33,352 nt of DNA from a virus, in IMG/VR virus record IMGVR_UViG_3300027963_000196, positions 1 to 33,352 of that record. One strand, written 5' to 3'. Position numbers and translations under genes: made by a program. Below the pieces are notes generated by a model. The model did no database searches. It was not told the DNA's origin and worked only from the letters and a program-made list of their open reading frames with translations. This document shows, piece by piece, positions 3,903 to 21,428 of this stretch; position 1 is the first letter of the stretch, and each line of letters opens with the position of its first letter.

Positions 3903-4496
3903 ATGGAGCATAACGATATTTTAGATATTATTATAAAAAATAATATAAATGGGTTTCATTTGCCAGGTGGTACAGATAAAGCTACATATCATAGTTATGA
4001 TGTAATCTATAGTAGTTTACTTTCCAAATATAAAGATAAGCCTGGTACTATTCTTGAAATAGGTGTTCAGTATGGAGGATCTGCGCTACTTTGGCACGAT
4101 TATTTACCGTTGTTTAATTTAGTTTTAATAGATAATCAAAATCAAGTTCATCCAGCTATATGGGAAAAGTTATATGTTGGAAGATACGATTATATTGAGG
4201 TTGATGCATTTACAAATGATACAATAACTTTATTACAACAAAAATATTCTGATGGATTTGATATTATTATTGAAGATGGTCCTCATGATATAACTACTCA
4301 AACATTTGCATTAACGGAATACTCTAAATTATTAAAGCCTGGTGGTACTTTAATAATCGAAGATATACAAGATATTGATTCTATAGCACCTATGATGTCA
4401 TCAATAAATTCTGCTGATTATAAAACTTTAGACTTTTACGACTTAAGATCTAATAAAGGTAGATATGATGATTTAATTATTGTTTTAACTAAATAG
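3903..4496 (+). CDS. Class I SAM-dependent methyltransferase
   Basis: This 197-residue protein has a Rossmann-type SAM site: ILEIGVQYGGSALLW (motif I, about residues 50-64), then LVLIDNQ (end of the second strand), FDIIIEDGPHD (motif IV-like) and LLKPGGTLIIEDI. It resembles the small methyltransferases found in antibiotic and polysaccharide clusters. It is the first gene of a same-strand run with an FkbM methyltransferase and glycosyltransferases (1-base gap to the next gene), so a sugar or glycopeptide substrate is likely. The substrate cannot be read from the sequence. Confidence 0.8.
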   Translation: MEHNDILDIIIKNNINGFHLPGGTDKATYHSYDVIYSSLLSKYKDKPGTILEIGVQYGGSALLWHDYLPLFNLVLIDNQNQVHPAIWEKLYVGRYDYIEVDAFTNDTITLLQQKYSDGFDIIIEDGPHDITTQTFALTEYSKLLKPGGTLIIEDIQDIDSIAPMMSSINSADYKTLDFYDLRSNKGRYDDLIIVLTK

Positions 4497-4497
4497 T

Positions 4498-5205
4498 ATG
4501 AGAGAAGTTACTAGACATGATGTTAGTTTTTTGGTAAATACTAATACTATAAATGCAGATTTTTGGAATATCGAAAATTGGGAATCAGAAAATTATATTA
4601 AAATTTACGATATATCTAAGACTACTAATACCTTTGTAAATGCTGGAGGTTGGATAGGTCCTTTTACTTTATTTGCTGGTAAGATATTTAAAAATGTATT
4701 TAGCTTAGAACCAGATCCTATTGCATTTCAAGAACTCAAATCTAATGTCGATTTAAATGCATTGAAAAATATTAAGATTTATAATAAAGCATTTAATAAT
4801 AAAAACGATATTATTACTATAGGCTCAGATTATTCAGAACTAGGAAGAAGCGGTTCGAGTATTTTTCAATCTCAAAATTCTGTTGAAATAGAAGCGGTGA
4901 CATTAGAGTCGTTCTTTAGTGCTGAAAATATAGCTGCTAACTCATTATTAATGTTAGATGTTGAAGGTGCTGAGTATTTATTATTTGATAACTATAATTT
5001 CTTTAAGACGTATAAACCTATTATATTACTCTCTCTACATTTAACGTTTTTATCAGATGATAATTTTAATTTTTTAATAGAAGGTCTACGCAAGTTAGAA
5101 GATATATATGAACTTGATTTACAACTAATCTTGTTAAACAGATTAAGCTCACCGTTTCAAGGTCCTTTTAAAGAATTAAATATTTTAATGACACCGAAAA
5201 TATGA
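4498..5205 (+). CDS. FkbM-family methyltransferase
   Basis: Visible motifs are FVNAGGWIGPFTLFAGKIF (SAM motif I, about residues 42-60), VFSLEPDPIAFQELKSNV (acidic loop), ALKNIKIYNKAF, then SLLMLDVEGAEYLLF (about 150-164). This order is diagnostic of FkbM O-methyltransferases, which commonly methylate sugars or polyketides. FkbM proteins normally read NVGANIG in motif I; here it is NAGGWIG. The gene follows the preceding methyltransferase by one base and overlaps the next gene by 4 bases (ATGA), which suggests coupled translation in a glycan-modification operon. Confidence 0.85.
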   Translation: MREVTRHDVSFLVNTNTINADFWNIENWESENYIKIYDISKTTNTFVNAGGWIGPFTLFAGKIFKNVFSLEPDPIAFQELKSNVDLNALKNIKIYNKAFNNKNDIITIGSDYSELGRSGSSIFQSQNSVEIEAVTLESFFSAENIAANSLLMLDVEGAEYLLFDNYNFFKTYKPIILLSLHLTFLSDDNFNFLIEGLRKLEDIYELDLQLILLNRLSSPFQGPFKELNILMTPKI

Positions 5206-5885
5206 AAATTCCTATTATAATAAATAATTGTAATTTATTAACATATCCGAGGCAAATGCTTGAAAGGTTAAGTAAATTCGATAATGTAGGTGAGATAATT
5301 ATAGTAGATAATTCATCTACCTATCCTCCGTTGCTTAATTGGTATGAAACAAATCCATGCAAAATAATAAAAACAGAGTTAAGTGGTCATTTAACACCGT
5401 GGTATATTAATTTACCAATTAGTTTAAATTCCGAATTTTATATTGTAACTGACCCTGATTTAGATCTTACTAATACACCTTTAGATACTTTAACATTTTT
5501 ATATGAGAAAATGTTAAAGTATACTGAGTATGATAAAATTGGGTTATCTCTAAGCAATTGGAATGTGAGTGAAGACTCTCCTTATTATGCCTTTCTAAAA
5601 AAATGGGCTAGTTCTACCTTTAACCCTGCTACAATATATGATGAGCTGTATACTAATCAGCAGATAGATACAGTATTTGCTATGTATAATATACGTAGAA
5701 ATTTTAGAGGTAGTAGCTGTGCAACTATCGAGCCATATAGTGCTAAACATATTCCTTGGGAATTTACAAACGAAGATATTTTAAATATGAAAAATAATAA
5801 TCCTGAATATTATTATTATTTAACCAATGCTAATAACTCATCATCGTATAAGTCTTTTATAAATTTTAACGAGAATACTTTATAA
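5202..5885 (+). CDS. Glycosyltransferase-like protein, GT-A type
   Basis: A 227-residue protein whose N-terminus (MKIPIIINNCNLLTYPRQML) and following IIIVDNSSTYPPLLNWY fit the nucleotide-sugar-binding half of GT-A enzymes. FYIVTDPDLDLTNTP (about residues 85-99) carries the DxD metal-binding motif. The C-terminal part has RNFRGSSCATIEPYSAKHIPW, as in phage and giant-virus glycosyltransferases. It starts inside the FkbM gene (ATGA overlap) and is followed 3 bases later by another glycosyltransferase. Donor and acceptor are unknown. Confidence 0.72.
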   Translation: MKIPIIINNCNLLTYPRQMLERLSKFDNVGEIIIVDNSSTYPPLLNWYETNPCKIIKTELSGHLTPWYINLPISLNSEFYIVTDPDLDLTNTPLDTLTFLYEKMLKYTEYDKIGLSLSNWNVSEDSPYYAFLKKWASSTFNPATIYDELYTNQQIDTVFAMYNIRRNFRGSSCATIEPYSAKHIPWEFTNEDILNMKNNNPEYYYYLTNANNSSSYKSFINFNENTL

Positions 5886-5888
5886 ACT

Positions 5889-6491
5889 ATGGAAAATAAA
5901 AATAAATCTTTTGTTGATATTATTATACCGACCTTTAATCGTTATAATCTTTTAAAATGTATGTTGTATTCTCTTATAGCTCAGTATGATCCTGACTGGA
6001 CAGCTACTGTAGTAATAGATAATGTTGAGACTTCTGAAGAAAGTATTACTATAATAGATGTTATTAAACAAATATCAGACTCACGAATTCGATATATTAA
6101 TACTGATAGACAGTATAATGATTGGGGACATACTCCTAGAGAGATAGGTAAGCAGCAAAGCGAGTCGCAATATATTATAATGACAGGAGATGATAATTAT
6201 TATGTACCTACGTTAGTTAATGAGCTAAAAGTAGTTGCGAGAGAGCATAATACGCCTAGCTTAATATACTGGGATATGATTCACTCTCATTTTAATTATG
6301 CACTACTTAAATGTCAATTAATATTTGACCAGATAGATATGGGAGCTTTTGCAACAAGAAGAGATGTAGCTCAAAAAATTAAATTAAATAATACCTATAC
6401 AGCTGATGGTTGGTTTATCCATGATTTAAATACTTTATTTGAAAATGAAGATAAAATTAAAATAAATAAAGTACTATTTACACATAATTAA
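5889..6491 (+). CDS. Family 2 glycosyltransferase
   Basis: A 200-residue protein beginning with the classic GT2 entry VDIIIPTFNRYNLLKCMLYS, with a VVIDN strand and YIIMTGDDNYYVPTLV (about residues 96-111), where the acidic DD acts as the DxD motif. RQYNDWGHTPREIG before the acidic motif is also typical of GT2. It is short (most GT2 domains are 220 or more) and lacks a membrane anchor. It is packed between two other glycosyltransferase-like genes in the late-box cluster. Confidence 0.8.
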   Translation: MENKNKSFVDIIIPTFNRYNLLKCMLYSLIAQYDPDWTATVVIDNVETSEESITIIDVIKQISDSRIRYINTDRQYNDWGHTPREIGKQQSESQYIIMTGDDNYYVPTLVNELKVVAREHNTPSLIYWDMIHSHFNYALLKCQLIFDQIDMGAFATRRDVAQKIKLNNTYTADGWFIHDLNTLFENEDKIKINKVLFTHN

Positions 6492-6495
6492 TAAT

Positions 6496-7350
6496 ATGTT
6501 AATAACACAAGAGTTTCTAAACTCACTTGTAATTACTCGAAAAGATGGTGTATCTGGTTTAATGAGAGTGAGTAATGAAGAAAAAACTGTTAGACAATCT
6601 ATTGAATCGGTAATTAATGTACTAGATGAGTTAGTAATTGTTTATCATAATTGTGTTGATAACACTATAGTAATTCTTAAAGAGCTAGCCTTTAAATATA
6701 AAAAAATATCTCTGTTTGAATATACCCAATATGTAATACCAGCAAATACAGGAGGATATGTTAGTAGATTTAACTTATGTCATTCTTTAGCTAATTATTA
6801 TAACTACGGCTTAAGCAAATGTAAATATAATTGGTTTCTAAAAATAGATGCAGATCAAATTTATTTTGAAGATGAACTTAAAAATTTGTTTAGCAGTAGA
6901 CAATCACTAAATTATTATTGTATGATTGGCTTTAATGTTACCGTCGATATTAATAATGATATTTCCGTTGGTTCTTTTGACGATGTACCTATTAACGGAC
7001 ATCACGGTGACCATTTTTTGACAGAAATTAAGATTGATTCCTGCTTTACTATACCGCAAAAAGCTGATAATTCTTATTGTCAGACTGAGCAGTATTATGA
7101 GCCAGGACTATCTTGGGATATGTTTAATTTTAGTGTTGGAGGTGCATTTTGGTATCATATAAGATACTTTAAAGATATTGGTACAGATTTTTATTTATCA
7201 GAGCAAGAGAAAGCTACTGTTAGTGCTTATATAAATTTTAAGTACTTAAGATCGAAATTATGCAATAAATATTCTGATACGAAGATTCGTAAAATAGTTA
7301 GCTGCTTTAATAAAAACAAAGTGAAATTATTAAGAAGTAACTTTGTTTAA
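6496..7350 (+). CDS. Glycosyltransferase-like protein
   Basis: A 284-residue protein resembling GT2 enzymes: MRVSNEEKTVRQSIESV, then VLDELVIVYHNCVDNT, ending the nucleotide-binding half at WFLKIDADQIYFEDEL (about 112-127) with a DAD metal motif. HHGDHFL and GGAFWYHIRYFKD follow in the acceptor half. The layout fits glycosyltransferases that add to branched glycans. Its last 21 bases overlap, tail to tail, the convergent gene at 7330-8058. It is the end of the plus-strand glycan run; no clear terminator lies between the convergent genes. Confidence 0.72.
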   Translation: MLITQEFLNSLVITRKDGVSGLMRVSNEEKTVRQSIESVINVLDELVIVYHNCVDNTIVILKELAFKYKKISLFEYTQYVIPANTGGYVSRFNLCHSLANYYNYGLSKCKYNWFLKIDADQIYFEDELKNLFSSRQSLNYYCMIGFNVTVDINNDISVGSFDDVPINGHHGDHFLTEIKIDSCFTIPQKADNSYCQTEQYYEPGLSWDMFNFSVGGAFWYHIRYFKDIGTDFYLSEQEKATVSAYINFKYLRSKLCNKYSDTKIRKIVSCFNKNKVKLLRSNFV

Positions 7351-8058
7351 GTTAATTTTTAAGTATTCTTTTGACGGAGGGTTGCCGTAAAAATGACAAG
7401 AATGTGGATCTTTATATAATTCGACTAATTTAACATTTGGCCACTTTTGAAGGACCCAACGTTCACATAAATGAAAAGCGCAGTTATTAGCTAAATTTCC
7501 AACAATATCTTCTCTTATACGAGGTAATGTTTTTATATAACTAGTATTACTCCACCAAAAATTTCCACTAAAATGGTAGGCATGATCTTCACCATCTATA
7601 GCTAGATCATTAGATTTACTATTAACTAAACAACTCCCAAGTACATCATTACTCTCTAACAGCTCTAAACAGTCGCTATACTTGTATATTAAAAAATACT
7701 CCATCATCTCTCTCCATTGTCTAATATTATCTTGCAATATAATGTTTCCAACAAATCTCGTACTTACACCTTTAGCATGTATATATAGTATATTAGCATT
7801 ATGTTCCTGTGCAAAATCATGCATTGAGTGTAAACATAGCCGCTCATAATGATAGACATAAGAGTCATATTTATCTAGAATAATTTTGCTAGATTTTTTA
7901 AGAAGAAAATTAATATTATTTTTATTACTCCCTAGATAGGTAATATATATTTTATCTACTTTAGCTAAAAGACCTGATCTTTTAATGCTATTAAATTGAT
8001 CAGTTACTATTTTTTTATAATTCGATAACCCACAAATATGCCAAAATATTACATTCAT
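7330..8058 (-). CDS. Glycosyltransferase-like protein of virus/marine bacterial type
   Basis: A 242-residue protein with ANILYIHAKGVSTRFVGN, IRQWREMMEYFLIYKYSDCL, HFSGNFWWSNTSYIKTLP and CERWVLQKW. I recognise this order (YIHxKGVS, WRxxMxYF, HFSGNFWWxNxxYIxxLP) from a glycosyltransferase-like family in phages, giant viruses and marine bacteria, but no activity is firmly established. The box GGTAAATA at 8065-8072 ends 6 bases upstream of the ATG, inside the end of the spanin-like gene. It lies opposite to the other glycan genes but is clearly part of the same theme. Confidence 0.7.
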   Translation of the reverse strand: MNVIFWHICGLSNYKKIVTDQFNSIKRSGLLAKVDKIYITYLGSNKNNINFLLKKSSKIILDKYDSYVYHYERLCLHSMHDFAQEHNANILYIHAKGVSTRFVGNIILQDNIRQWREMMEYFLIYKYSDCLELLESNDVLGSCLVNSKSNDLAIDGEDHAYHFSGNFWWSNTSYIKTLPRIREDIVGNLANNCAFHLCERWVLQKWPNVKLVELYKDPHSCHFYGNPPSKEYLKINLNKVTS

Positions 8059-8063
8059 TGAAC

Positions 8064-8306
8064 TTATTTACCATAATACAGCGTACGCTCTAGCTCTCTA
8101 AAGCGTTTATCAGAATGCCATACCTCATCTACTTGAGGTGTATATATTCCATCATTTGTTTGTACTGACAGGTTTGCTTTCAGCTTTAATATAGAAGGCT
8201 GATATATCACTAAGGAACCTACGTTCGTCGAGGAGTTCGTTACGCATGAGGTCAGCGCGGTCACTAGAAGCATTAGTACCAGTATTACGTAGCTTTTCAA
8301 TTTCAT
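8064..8306 (-). CDS. Outer-membrane spanin-like lipoprotein (Rz1-like)
   Basis: An 80-residue protein beginning MKLKSYVILVLMLLVTALTSC: two Lys, a hydrophobic stretch and a lipobox LTSC with the acceptor at Cys21. This is a lipoprotein signal. Its 5' part (8152-8306) lies in another frame inside the gene at 8152-8427, the nested arrangement typical of Rz/Rz1 spanin pairs that fuse inner and outer membranes at the end of lysis. At about 60 residues the mature protein fits an o-spanin. It sits next to a holin-like gene and the endolysin. Its existence implies a Gram-negative host. Confidence 0.7.
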   Translation of the reverse strand: MKLKSYVILVLMLLVTALTSCVTNSSTNVGSLVIYQPSILKLKANLSVQTNDGIYTPQVDEVWHSDKRFRELERTLYYGK

Positions 8307-8427
8307 TTATTAATTCTGTTTGTTTTGCTCTGGATAAACGCGTTACATTATAAAGCGTAGTTTTATTTTTTAACTGTAAATATGCAGTTAAAGCAGCAAG
8401 AGCCTCTTTTATAATACTAAGTAACAT
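8152..8427 (-). CDS. Inner-membrane spanin-like protein (Rz-like)
   Basis: A 91-residue protein with a short, only moderately hydrophobic N-terminus (LLSIIKEALAALTAYLQL) followed by a charged region likely to form a helix or coiled coil (SRAKQTELINEIEKLRN, then DLMRNELLDERRF). Its last 155 bases overlap the lipoprotein gene in a different frame, as in Rz/Rz1. The membrane segment is weak, so the assignment rests mostly on gene order: holin-like, this gene, lipoprotein. An AAGGA sequence about 11 bases upstream of the start may act as a ribosome binding site. Confidence 0.58.
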   Translation of the reverse strand: MLLSIIKEALAALTAYLQLKNKTTLYNVTRLSRAKQTELINEIEKLRNTGTNASSDRADLMRNELLDERRFLSDISAFYIKAESKPVSTNK

Positions 8428-8444
8428 AAGTTATGTTCCTTATA

Positions 8445-8645
8445 TTAAACTCCTTTATCCTTCGCTTTACCGATATTAAGAGCTAAGAAGTCAAGTATTT
8501 TATATACCCATGCAAACTTAGAATTAGGATTAGGTGTTGGGGTGAGAGCAGCAATAGCAGAAGCCAAAGCGATAACACTTGAGGCTACATTATACCAAGA
8601 TTGTGATTGAAAAAATTCTATAGCTTTTGTAAAAATCTCTGTCAT
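8445..8645 (-). CDS. Small holin-like membrane protein
   Basis: A 66-residue protein with SWYNVASSVIALASAIAALTPTP as its hydrophobic segment, then SKFAWVYKILDFLALNIGKAKDKG. I recall this pattern (VIAxASAIAALTPTP, Y-K-xxDxLALNxGKAK) in small phage proteins next to lysis genes, often labelled holin-like. There is a single likely transmembrane helix with a basic tail. A perfect late box stands upstream, and the start is divergent from the endolysin gene. The holin role is inferred from location and hydrophobicity. Confidence 0.6.
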   Translation of the reverse strand: MTEIFTKAIEFFQSQSWYNVASSVIALASAIAALTPTPNPNSKFAWVYKILDFLALNIGKAKDKGV

Positions 8646-8653
8646 AATATAAT

Positions 8654-8661
8654 TATTTATA
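8654..8661 (-). promoter_or_regulatory. Late promoter box of the holin/spanin operon
   Basis: Minus-strand TATAAATA, a perfect T4-type late box, ends 8 bases before the ATG at 8645. It reads toward the holin-like and spanin-like genes. Confidence 0.7.
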
Positions 8662-8689
8662 TAAAGTAACTCTATTTTATTATTAATGT

Positions 8690-8697
8690 GATAAATA
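8690..8697 (+). promoter_or_regulatory. Late-type promoter box of the endolysin gene
   Basis: GATAAATA ends exactly 5 bases before the ATG at 8703. This position favours that ATG over the in-frame GTG at 8688, which would lie upstream of the box. Confidence 0.6.
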
Positions 8698-8702
8698 TTT
8701 TT

Positions 8703-9341
8703 ATGGATTTTAAAGATAAAGAAGTTCTTGTTAAAAGTGTACAGCGATCACTAAATCTCGTAGCTGATGGTGTAGATGGTCCCTTAACCTGGCAGACTAT
8801 CTTTAATAAAATAGTTACATCTAGCGAACAACCTAAAGATTCTAAACCAGCTAGTACTATATCTTTAGTTAAGAAGATTATCGCACTTGCTCGAGAAGAA
8901 GTTGGTGTTCGTGAGATAGGCGAAACCAATTGCGGTAAACGCGTTAATGAATATAAAGGTGCTACATATCTCGATAATACTCAAAGTTGGCCATGGTGCG
9001 CTGCTTTTATATGCTGGCTTTTTAGAGAAGCAATGAAAGGTGGAAATTATACTTTTAAGCGTCCAACAACTGCTAGTGCATGGGCTTTCGAAAACTGGGC
9101 TGAAGATCAAGACCTGTCGATCAGAATTAAAAAGCCACATAATGGTGATATAGTTGCTGGTGATATTATTATTTTTACTTTCTCTCATATTGGTCTTGCA
9201 ATTAGCGCACCTGATAAGAATGGTATGGTTCAGACTATAGAAGGTAATACTGATGATGCAGGTTCTCGAGAAGGTGGTGGTGTCTATCTTAAAGAAAGAC
9301 ATATATCTAAGATAAGAAGTAGATTACGTTTATGCGTTTAA
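8703..9341 (+). CDS. Endolysin: peptidoglycan-binding segment plus CHAP-like cysteine amidase/peptidase
   Basis: This enzyme degrades host peptidoglycan at lysis. The 212-residue protein starts with a short PG_binding_1-like segment (VLVKSVQRSLNLVADGVDG, residues 8-26, then LTWQTIF). A linker leads to a cysteine hydrolase domain: ALAREEVGVREIG, then WPWCAAFICWLF with the likely catalytic Cys99, and FSHIGLAIS with the likely His162. There is no signal peptide, so it needs the holin to leave the cytoplasm. I chose the ATG at 8703 because a late box ends 5 bases before it. It is divergent from the holin/spanin genes. Confidence 0.88.
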   Translation: MDFKDKEVLVKSVQRSLNLVADGVDGPLTWQTIFNKIVTSSEQPKDSKPASTISLVKKIIALAREEVGVREIGETNCGKRVNEYKGATYLDNTQSWPWCAAFICWLFREAMKGGNYTFKRPTTASAWAFENWAEDQDLSIRIKKPHNGDIVAGDIIIFTFSHIGLAISAPDKNGMVQTIEGNTDDAGSREGGGVYLKERHISKIRSRLRLCV

Positions 9342-9347
9342 TAAATA
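9340..9347 (+). promoter_or_regulatory. Late-type promoter box before the 66-residue gene
   Basis: AATAAATA overlaps the end of the endolysin gene and ends 6 bases before the ATG at 9354. Confidence 0.5.
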
Positions 9348-9353
9348 AAATAT

Positions 9354-9554
9354 ATGATTAAGGTAATTAATAATAATGAAGTAAAGCTTTGCTGTAATGG
9401 TCAAGGTTGTCCTGTAGTAAAAAAGTTAAGTGAGGATTCTTATCAAGTAACTGATGATGATGGTAATAAAATTATCGTCAAAAAAGCAGAACTAAAACTA
9501 ATGGCTGACGCAGTAACTACGTTAGACGGAACCAATCAATTAATCTGTGGCTGA
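9354..9554 (+). CDS. Small hypothetical protein, 66 aa
   Basis: I do not recognise this protein. It begins MIKVINNNEVKLCCNGQGCP and continues with a short beta-like region (SYQVTDDDGNKIIVKKAELK). The CCNGQGC cluster could bind metal. A late box stands in front, and the gene overlaps the next one by 8 bases, so the two are probably translated together. The position right after the endolysin suggests a late function. Confidence 0.65.
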   Translation: MIKVINNNEVKLCCNGQGCPVVKKLSEDSYQVTDDDGNKIIVKKAELKLMADAVTTLDGTNQLICG

Positions 9555-9822
9555 TTTAATTTTAACGCTATTAGCTTGTTGCGGATTTACTTTAATATTA
9601 AAGTATGGATCTATAATAAACTACATACGTAATTTTCTTATTCAGTTTCAATTTTTTAAAAATCTCTTTTTATGCTCGCTTTGTATCGGATTTTGGACCG
9701 GCTGCATTATTGGTTTATTTACTACGTACAGTTTTATCTTACTTGGGTTTGCAAGTGCCTTCTGTAGCTGGCTTGCAGACCATATAATATTATTACTTAA
9801 AAATAAAATATGGCCTACGTAG
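9547..9822 (+). CDS. Small membrane protein, 91 aa, GTG start
   Basis: The protein has three hydrophobic stretches: LILTLLACCGFTLILKYG at the N-terminus, FLCSLCIGFWTGCIIGLF in the middle (about residues 40-57) and FILLGFASAFCSWLADHIIL near the end. The CxxCxGFW motif occurs in other small phage membrane proteins of unknown function. The start is GTG within the previous gene's end (GTGGCTGA overlap), an arrangement that suggests coupled translation. Its last 8 bases overlap the convergent gene at 9815-10174. A second holin or accessory lysis role is possible but not supported beyond location. Confidence 0.68.
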   Translation: MADLILTLLACCGFTLILKYGSIINYIRNFLIQFQFFKNLFLCSLCIGFWTGCIIGLFTTYSFILLGFASAFCSWLADHIILLLKNKIWPT

Positions 9823-10174
9823 GTTTATTATTTTTAAGAATGAACTCTTTTAAAATACTTAGCATATGAATTGCATATTGCATTTCATCTTTATTAGATC
9901 TATTTAAAAGATCGCTTAGTTTATCTATAACAAGCTCTGTTGATATACTACCTGTAATCTTACTTTCTTCAGCTTCAATTCGACCTGCAGTACCTGCAGC
10001 TGCTGCTACTGAGTACGCATTTGATCCTGTATTACCTTTATTAAAGTCAAGTTGACTAGGGTATGTATGCATTCCAGAATTCATTGGATTAGGAGCATAT
10101 TTAGGATTACCAGGTTCAGAAACACTCATACCGCCACCCTCATAAATTAACTGCAGTTTTTTATAATCATTCAC
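9815..10174 (-). CDS. Hypothetical late protein, probably virion-associated
   Basis: I do not recognise this 119-residue protein. The middle is Gly/Pro/Asn-rich (SEPGNPKYAPNPMNSGMH), followed by Ala-rich AYSVAAAAGTAGRIEAEESK and a helical C-terminus. I chose the GTG at 10174 because an ACTAAATA late box ends exactly 5 bases before it. The frame extends upstream to an ATG at 10228, which would place the late box inside the gene. A third option is the ATG 15 codons further in (MSVSEPG), which has a GAGGG sequence in front. Confidence 0.6.
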   Translation of the reverse strand: MNDYKKLQLIYEGGGMSVSEPGNPKYAPNPMNSGMHTYPSQLDFNKGNTGSNAYSVAAAAGTAGRIEAEESKITGSISTELVIDKLSDLLNRSNKDEMQYAIHMLSILKEFILKNNKPT

Positions 10175-10179
10175 ATATA

Positions 10180-10187
10180 TATTTAGT
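10180..10187 (-). promoter_or_regulatory. Late-type promoter box of the 119-residue gene
   Basis: Minus-strand ACTAAATA ends 5 bases before the GTG at 10174. It touches the -35 box of the divergent phosphoribosyltransferase promoter. Confidence 0.5.
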
Positions 10188-10214
10188 TGAAACCTTATTG
10201 AACTACAATATAAT
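10187..10214 (+). promoter_or_regulatory. Sigma70-like promoter of the phosphoribosyltransferase gene
   Basis: TTGAAA (10187-10192), 16 bases, TATAAT (10209-10214). The ATG at 10220 is 5 bases after the -10 box, so the transcript is predicted to be leaderless or nearly so. Confidence 0.7.
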
Positions 10215-10219
10215 AATAT

Positions 10220-10666
10220 ATGAATCAATATAAATATGATTATAATATAATAGAAACATACGTTAATTCTTTAGTCAGTCGTATTAAAGCTAAAAAGTTA
10301 GAGTTTAATTACATAGTAGGTATTGGTAGAGGCGGTCTTATTCCTGCAACAATGATAGGTTATAAATTAAACTCACCTGTTCTTAATTACGGTGTTAGTT
10401 TATATAATGATAAAAATGAATCTGAAACTTTAAAAGTATATCAAGATATAAATTTTGATGCTTTAGAATCTAATACGAAACTATTAGTAGTAGATGATAT
10501 TTGTGATACAGGTAAGACTTTTTCACATTTTAAAGAACTGAAAAAGAACAATGTTATTCAGACTACATACGCTGCATTGTTTGCTAAAGAAGCTACTATA
10601 CATCTTGTTGATATGTGTACCAATATTGTTGGTGACGAGTGGGTAATCTTTCCTTGGGATTCTTAA
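10220..10666 (+). CDS. Type I phosphoribosyltransferase
   Basis: The enzyme transfers phosphoribose from PRPP to a base. The 148-residue protein shows YIVGIGRGGLIPATMIGYKL (about residues 28-47) and the PRPP-binding loop LLVVDDICDTGKTF (about 88-101), where the two acidic residues and the DTGKT loop are diagnostic. Size and motifs resemble hypoxanthine/xanthine phosphoribosyltransferases of the Gpt type. The substrate base is not readable; purine salvage is the simplest guess. It begins an early-type operon with the next two small genes and ends 3 bases before the following gene. Confidence 0.85.
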   Translation: MNQYKYDYNIIETYVNSLVSRIKAKKLEFNYIVGIGRGGLIPATMIGYKLNSPVLNYGVSLYNDKNESETLKVYQDINFDALESNTKLLVVDDICDTGKTFSHFKELKKNNVIQTTYAALFAKEATIHLVDMCTNIVGDEWVIFPWDS

Positions 10667-10669
10667 TTT

Positions 10670-11032
10670 ATGTCATCAAAAAAAGTTACATGTATTATTA
10701 CAGGCAGTTCTTATATATTCTCCACAGAATATTATAAGAAGAAAGTAGTTGAATATAAAGATGAAGATAATCTTAAGAAATACTTCATTTTAAAAAAAGC
10801 AAAATCGTTACTTGATAGAGGATTCTCTGTTCAAGAGGTACGTAAGCATTTAGATATCGACGATAGTCAACTGATGGATTGTGATGCTCAGCCTATTCAA
10901 GATTTAATAGCTTATCATAAATTACAAAATCCAAACTCTACAAAAAAAGTTGAAAGTACTTTGAACTTTGCTACTCATAAATCGGATGATGACGTAGCTA
11001 GGTTCATAAATAATATAAGAAATTATGAATAA
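10670..11032 (+). CDS. Hypothetical protein, 120 aa
   Basis: I do not recognise a named family. The N-terminus (KKVTCIITGSSYIFSTEYY) looks like a short beta hairpin with one Cys. It is followed by helical YFILKKAKSLLDRGFSVQEV and RKHLDID, which resembles a small helix-turn-helix. The tail is DDDVARFINNIRNYE. A DNA- or RNA-polymerase-binding role would fit, but this is only a guess from shape. It lies between the phosphoribosyltransferase and a small gene it overlaps by 8 bases. Confidence 0.65.
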   Translation: MSSKKVTCIITGSSYIFSTEYYKKKVVEYKDEDNLKKYFILKKAKSLLDRGFSVQEVRKHLDIDDSQLMDCDAQPIQDLIAYHKLQNPNSTKKVESTLNFATHKSDDDVARFINNIRNYE

Positions 11033-11255
11033 AACAAAACGATTTATCGCGTCCCAAGGTAGTGCAACTACCGTTAAAGTCTTCTTAGCTGATACAGGAC
11101 AACTTTATCGTACTATAGATACTGGTATTATTACAGCTACTCCTATTTGTACTGAATCAGAACTTACAGTAAATACAAAAGGCTCAGATGGTAAAACAGC
11201 TATAAAAATATTCGCTGTACCTTCCTTTAATCTTAAGCAGACTATTAACCTCTAA
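11025..11255 (+). CDS. Small hypothetical beta-rich protein, 76 aa
   Basis: The sequence (TVKVFLADTGQLYRTIDTG, then ELTVNTKGSDGKTAIKIFAV) alternates polar and hydrophobic residues as in a small beta sandwich or one blade of a propeller. I do not recognise the family. The start codon lies inside the previous gene (8-base overlap), so translation is probably coupled. It ends just before the nrdB promoter. Confidence 0.62.
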   Translation: MNKTKRFIASQGSATTVKVFLADTGQLYRTIDTGIITATPICTESELTVNTKGSDGKTAIKIFAVPSFNLKQTINL

Positions 11256-12321: not shown

Positions 12322-13389
12322 ATGTTATCATATGAATGGCTTAATGCAGACTCTCGTAAATTTCTTGAACGTGGTTATCTAAAGGTAGGTGAGACTCCTG
12401 AAGAAAGAATCTCAGATATAGCTAATGCTGCTGAACGATATTTAAATATTGAAGGCTTCGCATTGAAGTTTATGACCTACATGGCACATGGGTTCTATTC
12501 TCTATCTTCTCCTATCTGGTCTAATTTTGGTAGAGATAGAGGCTTACCTATCTCTTGTTTTGGTAGCTATATTCCTGACGATATGGAGAAGATTCTCTAT
12601 AAAGTTAGCGAAGTAGGTACTATGTCTAAGGTAGGAGGTGGTACTTCTGCATATTTTGGTGAAGTACGTAAGCGAGGTGCTCCTATTAGTGATGGAGGTA
12701 GTGCTACGGGAGTGCATCATCAACTTACTGTATTCAACTCTCTTATTAGTTATGTCTCTCAAAGTAATGTTAGACGAGGATCCTTTGCTGCTTATCTACC
12801 TGTTGATCATGGAGATATTGAAGAGTTCTTAGAGATTAAAAGCGCTGGTAATAGTATTCAAGACGTTTCCTTTGGAGTATGTGTAACAGATGAATGGCTA
12901 GCTGATATGAAAGCTGGTGATAAGCATAAACGTAAAATATGGGGCAAAGTAATTCAAAAGCGTTTTGAGACAGGATACCCTTATGTCTTCTTTACAGATA
13001 ATGCTAATAATCAAGCTCCTCAAGTTTATAAAGATAAGGGTTTAAAAATCAACGCGAGTAATTTATGTGTCACAGGAGACACTATTATTAGTATTTTAGT
13101 TAATGAGAACGAATATCTTGAAGTGCCAATTGATAGCCTTAATTATTACTTAAAGAAATACTCTGAAGTAAAAGTTAAGTCGTATGATGTTAAAACAGAT
13201 CAAGAAGTATACTCAACTATTGAAGCTTTTGCTCAAACAGGTGAATCTTCCGAAATTATAGAAATTGAAGATGAGCAGGGTAACATCATTAAATGTACTC
13301 CAGAACATCAGATATATACAAAAAATAGAGGGTATGTGCAAGCTCAGGAATTAAAGGAGGATGATATTCTTGTAATTACTCCTGAATAA
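12322..13389 (+). CDS. nrdA: Ribonucleotide reductase large subunit, N-terminal part, fused to N-half of a split intein
   Basis: Residues 1-248 are the first half of NrdA: the LPISCFGSYIPDD region with Cys79 (first redox Cys), KVGGGTSAYFGEVRKRG, and RRGSFAAYLPVDHGDIEEFL. They stop at INASNL, just before the catalytic Cys. Residues 249-355 are an intein N-half: Cys249 begins block A (CVTGDTIISI), and block B is NIIKCTPEHQIYT, with the TxxH motif. The protein then ends at a stop codon. The C-half is in a separate gene at 14285, so active NrdA requires splicing in trans. The usual N-terminal ATP cone of NrdA is missing. Confidence 0.93.
   Translation: MLSYEWLNADSRKFLERGYLKVGETPEERISDIANAAERYLNIEGFALKFMTYMAHGFYSLSSPIWSNFGRDRGLPISCFGSYIPDDMEKILYKVSEVGTMSKVGGGTSAYFGEVRKRGAPISDGGSATGVHHQLTVFNSLISYVSQSNVRRGSFAAYLPVDHGDIEEFLEIKSAGNSIQDVSFGVCVTDEWLADMKAGDKHKRKIWGKVIQKRFETGYPYVFFTDNANNQAPQVYKDKGLKINASNLCVTGDTIISILVNENEYLEVPIDSLNYYLKKYSEVKVKSYDVKTDQEVYSTIEAFAQTGESSEIIEIEDEQGNIIKCTPEHQIYTKNRGYVQAQELKEDDILVITPE
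13066..13386 (+). other. Split intein N-half (IntN) in nrdA
   Basis: 107 codons from Cys249 of the nrdA N-part to its stop. Block A has the nucleophilic Cys1 and block B has TPEH. The insertion is between Leu and the thiyl-radical Cys of the NLC motif. Confidence 0.9.
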
Positions 13390-13407
13390 TATGTATCGTG
13401 TAGACTA

Positions 13408-13446
13408 AATATATCTGTGCAGTAATGTTTTCTGCACAGATATATT
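13408..13446 (+). promoter_or_regulatory. Perfect 15-bp hairpin directly before the HNH gene start
   Basis: AATATATCTGTGCAG (13408-13422) pairs perfectly with CTGCACAGATATATT (13432-13446) around a 9-base loop. The start codon of the HNH gene begins at 13447, the next base. There is no U-run, so it is less like a terminator than a translation- or transcript-control element; it could also be a protein-binding palindrome. Confidence 0.8.
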
Positions 13447-14262
13447 ATGAATTATAAACAAATACACGATAACTTTATTACTTATATACAGAAATCTACA
13501 CCTAGAGAAAGGTTAACTATACGCAATCCTAATGATCAGAGACTAATGAAGACTGCAATATATCAAGAAGTTCATCATATAATTCCTAGATCGTTAGGCG
13601 GTATAGATGAGCTATACAATCTCGTTGCTGTACTTCCTGAGGAGCATATTTTCTTACACATGTTAAGGTATAAAATATACAGAAAACGAGAAGATATGCT
13701 CGCAGTAAGATTTACATTGAATGGTTATAATAACGGTAATAATGTAAAAGGTAAGTTTAAGTTTATTTTAAACAAAAAAATAAGAATGGGTTACGCGTGG
13801 TTAAAATCACATTCAACATATTTAAGAAAAACAGAAGGCTGGCAGACTTCAGAAGGTAGGAATCGCATTTCAGCAGCAAGGAAAGGTACAATTGTTGTTA
13901 AGGATATTCATACTAATACTATAATAGGATCTGTACCTACAACACATCCTAATGTTCTCTCAGGTCAATGGGTACACCACACAAAGGGTCGAAAAATATC
14001 TAATGTAGAAAAACAAATGAGAAGCAAAATGGGATCAGGTAATAAAAACAATAATTACTCTGGATTAACAGATGATTATTTTATTAAAAGGGGTATAGAA
14101 TTATATATTGAGTTTGGATATATACCAACATGGCCAAGTATAATTAAACTTGCAGAACTTAGAAATTTTAGGTGGTTAAAGGGTCTCGCTAAGTGTAGAT
14201 TCAATGGCTTAGGTAAGCGAGGGTTTTATGCAGCCGTTGAAGAACAACTACCAAATAAATAA
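13447..14262 (+). CDS. HNH homing endonuclease between the two intein halves
   Basis: A 271-residue endonuclease. The HNH core is QEVHHIIPRSLGGIDELYNL (residues 40-59) with His43/His44, Asn58 and a following His67. A NUMOD-like DNA-binding stretch follows: KGTIVVKDIHTNTIIG, then LSGQWVHHTKGR (about 146-182). The C-terminal region (DYFIKRGIELYIEFGYIPTW) may also bind DNA. It probably cuts intein-free nrdA and so spreads the insertion. It is a free-standing gene in the same reading frame as the nrdA N-part, separated by two in-frame stops and a hairpin. No Shine-Dalgarno is seen. Confidence 0.88.
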   Translation: MNYKQIHDNFITYIQKSTPRERLTIRNPNDQRLMKTAIYQEVHHIIPRSLGGIDELYNLVAVLPEEHIFLHMLRYKIYRKREDMLAVRFTLNGYNNGNNVKGKFKFILNKKIRMGYAWLKSHSTYLRKTEGWQTSEGRNRISAARKGTIVVKDIHTNTIIGSVPTTHPNVLSGQWVHHTKGRKISNVEKQMRSKMGSGNKNNNYSGLTDDYFIKRGIELYIEFGYIPTWPSIIKLAELRNFRWLKGLAKCRFNGLGKRGFYAAVEEQLPNK

Positions 14263-14284
14263 TACTAAACAGATAAAAAATTAT

Positions 14285-14383
14285 ATGATAAAAATAAAGA
14301 GATATAAAAAAGTAGAGCCGGTTTATGATATTACTGTATCTAAAGTAGCAAATTTTTTCGCTAATAAAATTCTAGTTCATAAC
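14285..14383 (+). other. Split intein C-half (IntC)
   Basis: 33 codons ending in His-Asn directly before the Cys codon TGT at 14384-14386. The block F and G spacing and length match natural split intein C-halves. Confidence 0.9.
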
Positions 14384-15286
14384 TGTAGTGAAATCTTCCT
14401 AAGTAACTCTGCTGATGAATCCTTTGTATGTGATTTATCTTCTATTAATCTTGAGAAATGGGATGAGATTAAAGAAACTGACGCGGTTCAAACTCTTATC
14501 TACTTCCTCGATGCAGTAATGACTGAGTTTATTAATAAGACTAAAGATGTCTTGTTCATGGAAGCTCCTCATAAATTTGCAGTCAATCAACGAGCATTAG
14601 GTTTAGGAGTTCTTGGCTGGCATTCGTATTTACAGAGTAAAGATATTGAGTTTGAATCTATGGCTGCTAAACTTGAGAACGTTCAGATCTTCTCTACTAT
14701 TAGATCTGAATGTGATAGAGCTACTGAGAGCTTAGCGTCTCTCTTTGGAGAACCCGCTCTGCTAAAGGGCTATGGTAGACGTAATACAACTACAATGGCC
14801 GTAGCTCCAACGACGTCTAGTTCATTTATTTTAGGTCAAGTTTCACCTTCTATTGAACCTCTAAATAGTAATTACTTTGTAAAAGACTTAGCTAAAGGTA
14901 AGTTTACTTTCCGCTCTCCACACTTAGCTAAATTACTCAAATCAAAAGATAAAGATACTACTGATGTATGGATGAGTATTCTATCTAGAGGTGGTAGTGT
15001 GCAGCATCTTGAGTTCTTAACTCAGCATGAAAAAAACGTCTTTAAGACCTTTAGTGAGATAACTCAAAAAGAGATTATCATTCAAGCTGCTCAGAGACAG
15101 AAATATATCGATCAAGGACAATCGTTGAACTTAATGATTCCTCCTTCTACAAAAGCTAAAGATGTAAATGAGCTTATGTTATTTGCTCACGAGATGGGTA
15201 TTAAGTCTCTTTACTATCAGCGGTCTGCTAATCCTGCTCAAGAGTTAGCTCGATCTATTCTGAATTGTTCTTCATGTGAATCATAG
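14285..15286 (+). CDS. nrdA: Split intein C-half fused to C-terminal part of ribonucleotide reductase large subunit
   Basis: Residues 1-33 from the ATG at 14285 are the intein C-half: block F is VYDITVSKVANFFAN and block G is KILVHN, with the terminal Asn. The next residue is Cys34, both the +1 splicing nucleophile and the catalytic thiyl-radical Cys of NrdA (CSEI, with its partner Glu). The NrdA remainder (300 residues) has the second redox Cys in SFVCDLSSINL, the radical-transfer pair in LYYQRS, and the C-terminal CSSC thiol pair. Spliced NrdA would be about 548 residues. An in-frame ATG at 14228 overlaps the HNH gene and would add 19 unlikely residues. Confidence 0.92.
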   Translation: MIKIKRYKKVEPVYDITVSKVANFFANKILVHNCSEIFLSNSADESFVCDLSSINLEKWDEIKETDAVQTLIYFLDAVMTEFINKTKDVLFMEAPHKFAVNQRALGLGVLGWHSYLQSKDIEFESMAAKLENVQIFSTIRSECDRATESLASLFGEPALLKGYGRRNTTTMAVAPTTSSSFILGQVSPSIEPLNSNYFVKDLAKGKFTFRSPHLAKLLKSKDKDTTDVWMSILSRGGSVQHLEFLTQHEKNVFKTFSEITQKEIIIQAAQRQKYIDQGQSLNLMIPPSTKAKDVNELMLFAHEMGIKSLYYQRSANPAQELARSILNCSSCES

Positions 15287-18423: not shown

Positions 18424-18454
18424 ATATTTAGTCATTGAATCTAAAACGAACTAT
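18424..18454. repeat. 31-base direct repeat, copy 2
   Basis: Second copy of the 17946-17976 repeat, one mismatch (g at 18431). In this copy the plus-strand half is a complete promoter. Confidence 0.92.
18425..18432 (-). promoter_or_regulatory. Late-type box upstream of the ParB-like gene
   Basis: Minus-strand ACTAAATA, 15 bases before the ATG at 18409. This spacing is longer than for the other late genes, consistent with the box having been copied with the repeat. Confidence 0.4.
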
Positions 18455-18462
18455 CATATAAT
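18435..18462 (+). promoter_or_regulatory. Sigma70-like promoter of the deazaguanine operon
   Basis: TTGAAT (18435-18440), 16 bases, TATAAT (18457-18462). The ATG at 18469 lies 6 bases after the -10 box, so transcription is predicted to start on the start codon. Confidence 0.72.
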
Positions 18463-18468
18463 AATATT

Positions 18469-19275
18469 ATGTTAATTGCACACGAAGCTCCTATCTCTAT
18501 TTTAGAAGATGTTCAACAAGTTACAGATTATGATTATGCTCTAGTACATCTATTTGAAACGCATCCAGAATATTATAAGTTTTTTAAACATGCTGTTGCT
18601 GCTGGACGAGAAGTATTACTTGATAACTCTATTTTTGAATTAGGTACTGCTTTTGACGCTTCTAAGTTTGCAAAGTATGTTAACGATCTTAAACCTACGT
18701 TTTATGTTGTACCTGATGTACTTGAGGATGCAGCTGCAACAATTGAATCTTATATTAATTTTAACATAAATTATGACTTGCCAGGATTAAAGATTGGAGT
18801 TGTTCAAGGTAAAACTTATGAAGAATTAGTTAATTGCTATACCTTTATGAGTAGTAATGCAGATTATATTGCTATTTCTTTTGACTATTCTTTTTATCAA
18901 TTTATTGGTCTTAAGTATGGTACTAATACACAAGATTATCAAGCTAAATTTCAACGACAAAGTTCTGGCCGACAAACTTTTATTGATATGCTTAAGCGAG
19001 ATGGTATTTGGAATTATAAAAAACCTCATCACCTGCTTGGTGCTTCTATTGTTTCAGAATTTGCTAAGTATAAAGATGATACAAGTATTAGATCATGTGA
19101 TACTTCTAACCCTGTAATGGCAGGATTACTCGAGCAACGATATATCAAAGGTATCGGTCTACGTTATAAAAGCTCCATTAAATTAGTCGATTTAATTGAT
19201 ACTCCGTTCAATGAGACTAATTTATCTGATATTCTCTTTAATATTAAATGTTTCCGTTCTATTTGTAATGATTGA
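18469..19275 (+). CDS. dpdA: TGT-like guanine transglycosylase, probable DpdA (DNA 7-deazaguanine insertion)
   Basis: DpdA enzymes are relatives of tRNA-guanine transglycosylase that swap guanine in DNA for a 7-deazaguanine base. This 268-residue protein has TGT landmarks: VLLDNSIFELG with Asp52, FYVVPDVLED (79-88), and GVVQGKTYEEL (110-120), very close to the TGT GxVQGxxYxxL motif. They are followed by AISFDY with Asp139 and HHLLGASIVSEFAKY. The zinc site of tRNA TGTs is not seen, as in DpdA. The gene heads an operon with a formyltransferase and QueF, which strongly supports the pathway. The next start codon overlaps its stop by 8 bases. Confidence 0.82.
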   Translation: MLIAHEAPISILEDVQQVTDYDYALVHLFETHPEYYKFFKHAVAAGREVLLDNSIFELGTAFDASKFAKYVNDLKPTFYVVPDVLEDAAATIESYINFNINYDLPGLKIGVVQGKTYEELVNCYTFMSSNADYIAISFDYSFYQFIGLKYGTNTQDYQAKFQRQSSGRQTFIDMLKRDGIWNYKKPHHLLGASIVSEFAKYKDDTSIRSCDTSNPVMAGLLEQRYIKGIGLRYKSSIKLVDLIDTPFNETNLSDILFNIKCFRSICND

Positions 19276-19849
19276 TAATAACGACTTAAAAAAGAAAAAG
19301 TGGGTGGCTCTCTACTCAATGTCTGGAACTGAAATTGTTAAGATAAGTACTCATATTAATAGATATCCTGATCTAATTATAACTAATAATCAAGACATTG
19401 AGTCATGGCATCCGATGATGCAATCTCTTAAAAAACTAAAACTTGTACAGTTAATTAGTAAATCGGATAGTAAAAATATTAAAGTACTTTCTGATTTATT
19501 TGGTATCAGGCAATCTAATCAAACTCGGATAACCCTTCATGGCTGGCTTAATGTTATACCTGCAGAGATTTGTGAAGCTTTTGAAATCTATAATGGTCAT
19601 CCAGGTCTTATTAATGTGTTTCCAGAATTACGCGGAAAAGACCCTCAACAGCGCGCATGGGATAGTATTGATAAGTATCCTGTTGTAGGTAGTGTAGTGC
19701 ATAGAGTTGTAGCTGAAGTAGATGCTGGTAATATTATTAGCTCTGATACTGCAAGTAGTGATAGATGTACTTCATTAGATGAAACATATAAAGTACTGAC
19801 TGATACTTCTTTTAACGCGTGGAAAAAAGCAATCAATACTATATTATAA
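19268..19849 (+). CDS. PurN-like formyltransferase, probable preQ1 formyltransferase (DpdN-like)
   Basis: A 193-residue protein with the formyltransferase core: NGHPGLINVFPELRGKDPQQ with Asn109 and His111 in the place of the PurN NxHP catalytic pair, then GSVVHRVVAEVDAGNIIS with Asp152. PurN transfers formyl from 10-formyl-tetrahydrofolate to an amine. PurN's normal substrate (GAR) makes little sense between a DpdA-like enzyme and QueF. A dPreQ1 formyltransferase called DpdN has been predicted in phages, and this position fits that role. I chose the ATG at 19268, overlapping the previous stop by 8 bases; the longer frame from 19196 runs through the upstream gene. Confidence 0.78.
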   Translation: MIDNNDLKKKKWVALYSMSGTEIVKISTHINRYPDLIITNNQDIESWHPMMQSLKKLKLVQLISKSDSKNIKVLSDLFGIRQSNQTRITLHGWLNVIPAEICEAFEIYNGHPGLINVFPELRGKDPQQRAWDSIDKYPVVGSVVHRVVAEVDAGNIISSDTASSDRCTSLDETYKVLTDTSFNAWKKAINTIL

Positions 19850-19853
19850 TATT

Positions 19854-20432
19854 ATGTTAATCTCTTTTAGTGGATCACAAAGTTCGGGAAAAAGTACTCT
19901 TCTCAATTATTTACGAACTAAGGATATAGATAATTATTATTATCCTCCGATAACCTTTATCTCAGAAATTACTCGACTTGTTAAGCGTAAATATAATTTA
20001 CCTATTAATGAAGAGGGAACAGATTTAACTCAGCTATTAATTGCTAATGAGCATTTAGTTAACTGCTTACTACCCGAGCATCAAAATAATGTTACAATTC
20101 TTGATAGGTGTATTATAGATGGGTTAATTTATACTAAGTGGCTTTGGGATAACAATCAAGTTACTGAACAAACGTATCGATCAGTAAGTCATATATACGA
20201 TTTGATTCACGATAAGTATGATATCATTTTTTATACTTCTCCTAAAGATATTGAACTTGAAGATGATGGGGAACGAAGTATCGATAAGCAATTTAGAGAT
20301 GATATTATTAAAGCTTTTGAAGAGCATATTAAAGATCTAAAAAATGTAGTCATACTTGAAGGATCAATTCAACAAAGACTTAATACTATTAAAGAAACAC
20401 TTGCAAAACATAACATTCACATTACAATATAA
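19854..20432 (+). CDS. P-loop kinase (AAA_28/NadR-type nucleoside kinase-like)
   Basis: A 192-residue protein with the Walker A loop GSQSSGKST (residues 7-15), a Walker B-like VTILDRCIIDGLIYTKWL (about 79-96), and IIFYTSPKDIELEDDGERSI, where the DGER region resembles the lid of NadR-type and deoxynucleoside kinases. It probably phosphorylates a small molecule. It sits 4 bases after the formyltransferase and 2 before queF, so a role in deazaguanine nucleotide handling is possible. Known pathways do not require such a kinase, so its task is open. Confidence 0.78.
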   Translation: MLISFSGSQSSGKSTLLNYLRTKDIDNYYYPPITFISEITRLVKRKYNLPINEEGTDLTQLLIANEHLVNCLLPEHQNNVTILDRCIIDGLIYTKWLWDNNQVTEQTYRSVSHIYDLIHDKYDIIFYTSPKDIELEDDGERSIDKQFRDDIIKAFEEHIKDLKNVVILEGSIQQRLNTIKETLAKHNIHITI

Positions 20433-20434
20433 CT

Positions 20435-21373
20435 ATGACATCAAAATTGGATAACTCTAATATCTCACGGCATCTTGGTCAGACTTCATCTTATAAGTCT
20501 ATCTACGATTCCTCTTTAATCGTACGTGAACCGAGACAGGCTAATCGTACTCATCTGAATATTCAAGACGATGATCTACCCTTTACTGGTACTGATACTT
20601 GGAATGCTTATGAAGTATCTGGTCTAACTAATAGTGGTGTACCGGTAGCTGGTATTGCTAAAATCGTTTACTCTTGTACGAATAAATATATCGTTGAGTC
20701 TAAATCTCTTAAGCTATATTTTAACTCTTTTAATATGACTAAGTTAGGTGAGTCTAGTGATGAAGTTAGAAAGACTATTCAAGAAATAGCTACACGAGAT
20801 TTATCTAGATTGCTTGAAACTGATGTTAAGGTAAAGGTATTTTCGAATAGAGAAGTTCTTGATGATACTACTACTGCTCATCAAGAGTGGTTTGCTTTTA
20901 ATAATACAAGTCCGGTTATTGAAGAGTTTATTACCTTAGAAGATGATTATCCTTTTGATGAACTTGAAATTAGTAAATATTCAGAATCTCCTGAACTCTT
21001 AGAAGTTATTGATTCAGAGAAAGAGATTACTTTATATCATAGTTCTTTGTTGAAGTCAAACTGCCGTGTTACTAGTCAACCTGACTTCGGTGATGTCTTT
21101 ATTCATATTAAAGGCTCAAAGACTATTGAACCTGCTTCTATGTTGAAGTATATTATCTCTTTTAGAGATGAATGTCACTTTCATGAAGAGATTTGTGAGA
21201 CTATCTATACAAGACTTTGGAATCTACTTAAGCCTGCAGAGTTAGTAGTAAGGTGTTTATATACTCGCCGCGGGGGTATTGATATTTGTCCTGAACGTGC
21301 ATCTGAACCTAAGCTTCAGCATTTTTCGTTAAATGATACTACAGTAGCTTATATTAAGACACCTCGTCAGTAG
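20435..21373 (+). CDS. queF: QueF, NADPH-dependent 7-cyano-7-deazaguanine reductase
   Basis: QueF reduces preQ0 (nitrile) to preQ1 (aminomethyl). The 312-residue protein is of the two-domain (E. coli) type. The first half has WNAYEVSGL and the QueF motif ESKSLKLYFNSFN (residues 88-100). The second half has LLKSNCRVTSQPDFGDV, with Cys210 as the nitrile-attacking residue, then FRDECHFHEE (His250, Glu251) for substrate binding, and YTRRGGIDICPERAS. All key residues are present. It closes the operon; a strong terminator follows. The upstream steps (FolE, QueD, QueE, QueC) are not in the window. Confidence 0.95.
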   Translation: MTSKLDNSNISRHLGQTSSYKSIYDSSLIVREPRQANRTHLNIQDDDLPFTGTDTWNAYEVSGLTNSGVPVAGIAKIVYSCTNKYIVESKSLKLYFNSFNMTKLGESSDEVRKTIQEIATRDLSRLLETDVKVKVFSNREVLDDTTTAHQEWFAFNNTSPVIEEFITLEDDYPFDELEISKYSESPELLEVIDSEKEITLYHSSLLKSNCRVTSQPDFGDVFIHIKGSKTIEPASMLKYIISFRDECHFHEEICETIYTRLWNLLKPAELVVRCLYTRRGGIDICPERASEPKLQHFSLNDTTVAYIKTPRQ

Positions 21374-21397: not shown

Positions 21398-21428
21398 AAA
21401 AACTTCTACTTAAGTAGAAGTTTTTTTT
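21398..21428 (+). terminator. Rho-independent terminator after queF
   Basis: A 12-bp perfect stem (21398-21409 with 21414-21425), TTAA loop, and Ts to 21428. It ends the deazaguanine operon before the tail-fibre operon. Confidence 0.88.

Follow-up and report, generated by a model that had tools for sequence, protein, structure and literature searches.

Replacement of guanine (G) by 7-deazaguanines in phage DNA has already been described, as has the transglycosylase class considered here and, probably, the formyltransferase. In the 2023 work of Cui and colleagues, DpdN is reportedly a predicted formyltransferase giving a formylated form of the queuosine precursor preQ1 (fdPreQ1) in phage DNA. 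In phages with classical DpdA proteins only part of the G is replaced: 1.7% in Dp-1 and 32% in CAjan, to give two examples (PMC6884629). In Campylobacter phages of the DpdA3 type, 7-deazaguanine replaces deoxyguanosine (dG) completely, as stated in the passage of PMC10273834 that cites Crippen 2019 and likewise in PMC8713573. The locus described here adds a member to these systems. It lies at positions 18469-21373 of a 33-kb virus fragment (IMG/VR record IMGVR_UViG_3300027963_000196; 33,352 nucleotides, called the window below) and is best explained as an operon by which a lytic, T4-like tailed phage hypermodifies its DNA with a DpdA3-type enzyme.

The operon, its transglycosylase and QueF

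Four contiguous genes on the + strand have the order dpdA3-ft-kin-queF. The first two overlap by 8 bases; the other gaps are 4 and 2 bases. The operon and its flanking signals are as follows.

18469..19275, + strand: DpdA3-type 7-deazaguanine transglycosylase, dpdA (268 aa; PHROG 19058)
19268..19849, + strand: PurN-fold formyltransferase, ft, candidate dPreQ1/preQ1 formyltransferase, DpdN-like (193 aa; Formyl_trans_N)
19854..20432, + strand: P-loop nucleoside/nucleotide kinase, kin, similar to NadR and thymidylate kinase (TMPK) (192 aa; AAA_28; P-loop GSQSSGKS)
20435..21373, + strand: QueF, two-domain NADPH-dependent reductase of the queuosine precursor preQ0, which makes preQ1 (312 aa; TIGR03138)
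21398..21425, no strand: intrinsic terminator-like hairpin, bidirectional (12-bp stem, T-run, minimum free energy -13.4 kcal/mol, z -4.4)
18435..18462, + strand: sigma70-like match TTGAAT-16-TATAAT, 6 bases 5' of the dpdA start (at chance level)

The first-pass annotation had placed a DpdA-like transglycosylase, a PurN-like formyltransferase (motifs NGHP and VDAGNII) and a complete QueF in one operon, and gene calls and family matches confirm this. The terminator that it reported at 21398 is also real; the hairpin is symmetric and strong. Its sigma70-like promoter at 18435 is present as a sequence that fits in 10 of 12 positions. Chance alone would give 18.3 such matches in the region, where 17 are counted; the match is therefore no evidence for the operon and was dropped as such. 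The formyltransferase start is placed at ATG 19268; the mechanical list of open reading frames (ORFs) has TTG 19196 instead.

The dpdA product has no Pfam family match. It matches PHROG 19058 (E 1.6e-59), a family whose function is listed as unknown, and shares 50% identity with the DpdA annotated in Flavobacterium phage immuto. It is also 45% identical, over 99% of its length, to Campylobacter Firehammervirus proteins, which fall in the same PHROG; we take this Campylobacter-type family to be the published DpdA3 class. A profile that includes divergent DpdA3 relatives aligns collinearly with a profile of nine classical phage DpdAs (P 4e-6), and a narrower DpdA3 profile gives a weaker match (P 1.8e-4). 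Three motifs resemble those of tRNA-guanine transglycosylase (TGT): GVVQGKTYEEL, KPHHLLG and DTSNP. Their D, H and G residues are invariant in 57 homologues, as are D52, D83 and D211 (in DTSNP), the candidate catalytic aspartates by sequence. Among 84,980 prokaryote genomes the family has only three matches, all on contigs of metagenome-assembled genomes or bins; this near absence points to genes of lytic phages. Net charge was considered as a sign that DpdA3 does not bind DNA and was left unused, as the median of -9 overlaps the range of -10 to +7 in DpdA1.

The queF product contains both T-fold domains (Pfam QueF_N 7e-33, QueF 4e-22; TIGR03138 3.5e-74). Its TIGR03138 score of 250 is under the cut-off of 293, which marks it as a divergent member of the family. 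C210, D217, E252 and the motif VESKSxKLYxNSFN are invariant in seven homologues.

Conservation of the operon and the predicted base

Family-profile scans of IMG/VR returned at least 585 DpdA and at least 532 formyltransferase relatives. The locus counts rest on the best 80 hits per scan, that is, on relatives that are at least about 50% identical to the window; the fetched loci hold 103 distinct DpdA genes (95% identity), 55 of these from the DpdA scan alone. These 55 non-redundant loci all carry the kinase; QueF is present in 54 and the formyltransferase in 17, where its usual place is between dpdA and kin. The order dpdA3-ft-kin-queF recurs in dozens of IMG/VR contigs, and its recurrence in many unrelated contigs rules out a chance arrangement. 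The four genes are thus a conserved module. The first-pass annotation had marked a four-gene set with a kinase and a two-domain QueF as deserving a check; this set is not peculiar but the rule, both in immuto and in the IMG/VR loci. The formyl-preQ1 type of guanine modification would thus be no curiosity of one phage but the work of an operon conserved across many lineages of aquatic phages. New points of this analysis are how widely the operon occurs, that its formyltransferase is optional and that the kinase is almost always present.

Some loci depart from this layout. In one clade (loci L021, L026, L042, L052, L053, L055 and L062) dpdA lies approximately 7 kb upstream of ft, kin and queF; the intervening block has minus-strand genes that by eye are CHASE2-, FecR- and CsgG-like, an odd cargo for a phage. 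Locus L140 (~6382-11238) has the reshuffled order folE-queF-ft-kin-dpdA3-prt, and the persistence of the set in shuffled form supports functional linkage. Genes that by eye resemble dCTP deaminase and class II amidotransferase recur near the operon in a FolE/QueE-linked clade (L123, 6454-6984, and others).

The formyltransferase matches Pfam Formyl_trans_N (3.1e-7), and its family profile matches PurN in the PDB (1.4e-13). In PurN, the SGxGSN loop holds the phosphate of glycinamide ribonucleotide (GAR). The PurN-type catalytic triad N109, H111 and D152 is invariant in 47 homologues; the family consensus has SQTGSE at the loop, and its Glu22 does not vary. The family is seen only in operons with this DpdA, and with QueF too wherever the contig reaches far enough; loci without QueF all stop at a contig edge. 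Loss of the loop Asn and the exclusive link to QueF, together with the retained triad, point to the preQ1 amine rather than GAR as the target. This supports formylation of a preQ1-type base rather than a role in purine synthesis. The published DpdN is likely to be this family, matched here by description and not by sequence. Many QueF loci have no formyltransferase, which makes formylation an optional last step; on a tree of 99 DpdAs its distribution needs four changes, three of them forced by well-supported branches.

These genes suggest the following pathway. preQ0 would come from the host or from phage genes in other parts of the genome, and QueF would reduce it to preQ1, as expected from its family and its conserved residues. 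DpdA3, by homology, would take guanine out and put 7-deazaguanine in; the formyltransferase would formylate the 7-aminomethyl group from 10-formyltetrahydrofolate. The DNA is predicted to end up with 7-(formylamino)methyl-7-deazaguanine, probably in place of most or all Gs, and the modified base would shield phage DNA from host nucleases and bacterial defences. We give a probability of about 0.75 to the operon producing a formylated 7-deazaguanine in phage DNA, a figure that excludes the role of the kinase. What the sequence shows directly is the gene identities, the catalytic residues, the conserved operon and the kinase linkage. The first-pass annotation had also proposed formyl-preQ1 DNA for the locus. 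The linkage of DpdA, formyltransferase and QueF, the kept triad and the lost GAR loop support this; the promoter, the self-contained operon (see below) and a special status of the arrangement are not supported.

Several points weigh against this reading. DpdA3 matches E. coli TGT only weakly (P 0.015), yet in register over GIIQG and KPRYLMGVG, and the PDB gave no sequence match for DpdA3. Substrates, order of steps and extent of replacement are what we infer from the genes; full replacement of G is extrapolated from the 45%-identical Campylobacter proteins. The formyl acceptor may be the preQ1 base, a nucleotide or DNA, between which sequence alone does not discriminate. Lastly, no preQ0 genes are seen within the window, in agreement with the first-pass annotation; since the window is only a fragment, their absence is uninformative.

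Larger relatives do carry preQ0 genes. Of 16 contigs with the operon, 13 have QueC, 14 have QueD and 10 have FolE, mostly distant from the four genes, so the operon is not self-contained as had been claimed. In one contig of 224 kb (L005), QueC, QueD and FolE are all located at 121-138 kb and the operon at ~90 kb. As most large relatives have such genes, the phage of the window probably makes its own preQ0 from genes elsewhere in its genome.

The kinase and the level of guanine exchange

The kinase matches AAA_28 (3.3e-13) and PHROG 2107, named 'thymidylate kinase' (1.3e-23). Profile matches in the PDB include the NadR kinase domain (1.2e-5) and TMPK (1.2e-4); NadR kinase (a nucleoside kinase), TMPK and deoxynucleoside kinase are matched at similarly weak E-values, which do not tell the substrate. 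In all 55 DpdA-scan loci the kinase adjoins DpdA3, usually within 150 bp, and it is also found beside DpdA in immuto and the Campylobacter phages. When the kinase family was used for the search, the best 80 loci all had QueF; dpdA3 is within 6 kb in 43 of the 53 with full flanks, and nine of the other ten are on already-fetched contigs with dpdA3 approximately 7 kb upstream.

The kinase is retained through all four formyltransferase changes on the DpdA tree. It is also present regardless of the predicted base: the Campylobacter base is an amide, and the Bacillus, Cellulophaga and Chryseobacterium loci have no QueF nearby. Presence with any 7-substituent makes an action on the side chain unlikely. 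Divergent DpdAs (Bacillus BSTP8, Chryseobacterium MA9V-3, Cellulophaga phiST) have other P-loop-type kinases at the neighbouring place. In nine classical DpdA loci (CAjan, Dp-1, 9g, MMDA13, CA8, RHEph06, Nadezda, Finch and phi3ST:2) no ORF within 3 kb codes for a P-loop kinase, and none of these loci matches the kinase profile. There are exceptions on the DpdA3 side: five lineages from the formyltransferase scan (L104, L105, L129, L150/L154 and L164) have dpdA3-ft-queF without a kinase near dpdA, and one of them, a contig of 36.5 kb, gave no match to the kinase profile or to the thymidylate kinase family of Pfam.

Judged by this linkage, the kinase is a core part of the operon, not a passenger, and the least explained part of it, to which the first-pass annotation gave no role. 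It is thereby singled out as the unexplained core partner of a complete-replacement transglycosylase, and its linkage makes replacement of G before or after replication directly testable.

Post-replicative exchange has about even odds: DpdA3 would exchange G in finished DNA, and the kinase would be auxiliary (nucleotide supply or clearing, salvage, or end repair). Cui and colleagues reportedly name the class DpdA3 and conclude that insertion is post-replicative, which speaks for this route and against exchange on precursors. DpdA3 is homologous to classical DpdA, which is thought to act on finished DNA; deletion of dpdA abolishes 2'-deoxy-preQ0 (dPreQ0) (PMC6884629). Post-replicative exchange leaves unexplained why kinases of different families lie beside DpdA3 but not beside classical DpdA. 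Most classical DpdAs are also longer than DpdA3, by ~50 residues.

The kinase linkage suggests, but does not prove, a sub-model of the formyl-deazaguanine reading that gives the kinase a job. DpdA3 would be a free-nucleotide guanine transglycosylase with a dedicated kinase for modified deoxynucleoside monophosphates or nucleosides: guanine would be swapped on free dGMP or deoxyguanosine, and the kinase would lift the product towards a deoxynucleoside triphosphate (dNTP) for the phage polymerase. The constancy of the kinase across DpdA3 loci, formyltransferase changes and predicted bases favours this precursor exchange, as do a kinase search whose best 80 loci are all such operons, the different P-loop kinases paired with divergent DpdA3s and their absence from the classical loci. 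Published data, on the other hand, oppose it: Crippen and colleagues reportedly found no phosphates of the amide nucleoside 2'-deoxy-7-amido-7-deazaguanosine (dADG) in infected cells in their 2019 work. With the linkage in favour and these data and the conclusion of Cui and colleagues opposed, nucleotide-level exchange is a tentative proposal, somewhat short of an even chance. The five kinase-less lineages also count against it.

Enzymes for clearing dGTP bear on the same proposal. Genes for dGTP/NTP pyrophosphohydrolases in the L005 contig, immuto, phiST and four other contigs speak for precursor exchange; the types that could clear dGTP are PF18909 (L005 contig), MazG and PRA-PH. In most large relatives no such gene was found, which counts against it, and these relatives also contain no convincing HD-type dNTPase. 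An HD domain beside the dpdA of Campylobacter phage CP220 is a further point in favour, as is the earlier proposal of a modified-dGTP route for Campylobacter phages (PMC6884629). The CP220 gene in question (gp055; L012, 8011-9042), directly upstream of dpdA3, encodes a fusion of an HD phosphohydrolase and an AAA_33 P-loop domain, a possible dNTP-clearing enzyme. If precursor exchange is true, a class of aquatic phages would replace guanine genome-wide by swapping the base and then phosphorylating the precursor, and optional tailoring genes would choose the 7-substituent (amide, aminomethyl or formylaminomethyl).

A metabolic operon, with the formyltransferase as PurN for purine synthesis and QueF and TGT for queuosine in host tRNA, is very improbable: PurN gives the best PDB matches and PHROG 9240 is named cyanobacterial PurN, but a score of 33 bits against the cut-off of 150 for the PurN equivalog TIGR00639, the lost GAR loop and the tie to DpdA3 and QueF led to rejection of PurN, and DpdA3, at 268 aa, is shorter than E. 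coli TGT (375 aa).

Other genes of the window and comparison with described systems

One further gene is a possible partner of the operon.

10220..10666, + strand: phosphoribosyltransferase, possible role in guanine or base salvage (Pribosyltran 4e-9)

It may recycle the guanine released by exchange. A homologue is located in the deazaguanine cluster of immuto, and 18 of the 103 DpdA3 loci have one.

The large subunit of ribonucleotide reductase is broken by a split intein (12322-15286). Its N-part (12322-13389) ends ...SNLC-VTGDTII... and its C-part (14228-15286) opens with an intein C-terminal piece that ends in VHNC; a free-standing HNH endonuclease (13447-14262) lies between the halves. 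The layout is similar to the 'fractured gene' arrangement already known. The stretch 3903-7350, next to thyA, holds two methyltransferase-like genes as well as glycosyltransferase-like ones (CgtA/GT2 at 6496-7350). For 30 window genes the 20 upstream bases were checked for Shine-Dalgarno-like sequences (AGGA, GGAG, GAGG or AAGG), and no gene has one; the host is therefore probably not Shine-Dalgarno-reliant, as in Bacteroidota.

Flavobacterium phage vB_FspM_immuto_2-6A (MW353175), an isolated and annotated phage, likewise has DpdA, formyltransferase, kinase and QueF in this order, with 35-50% identity. It differs in having one small ORF between dpdA and the formyltransferase. In addition, QueD, QueE, FolE, a phosphoribosyltransferase and a pyrophosphohydrolase are located just upstream in immuto; the window has only the phosphoribosyltransferase, 8 kb off.

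Campylobacter Firehammerviruses are the closest phages whose base is known. In one of them, CP220 (gp056-gp057), the 45% identical DpdA is directly followed by a homologous kinase (30%). Unlike the window, CP220 has an amide base (dADG) and the HD-domain/P-loop gene upstream, and the part of its neighbourhood that was read contains neither QueF nor a formyltransferase. Classical clusters (9g, CAjan and Dp-1) share the insertion of a 7-deazaguanine by a TGT relative, the preQ0 genes and sometimes QueF; they differ in a DpdA of mostly ~300-330 aa, in partial replacement and in the lack of a kinase beside dpdA.

Full base replacement with nucleotide kinases and/or dNTP-clearing enzymes is known from the hydroxymethyl-cytosine of T4 and the 2-aminoadenine of PurZ phages. 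T4 takes hydroxymethyl-dCMP by a kinase route to the polymerase substrate, which is the model for precursor exchange. These systems are an analogy for the role of the kinase only; they share neither base chemistry nor a homologous base-making enzyme with the DpdA3 operon.

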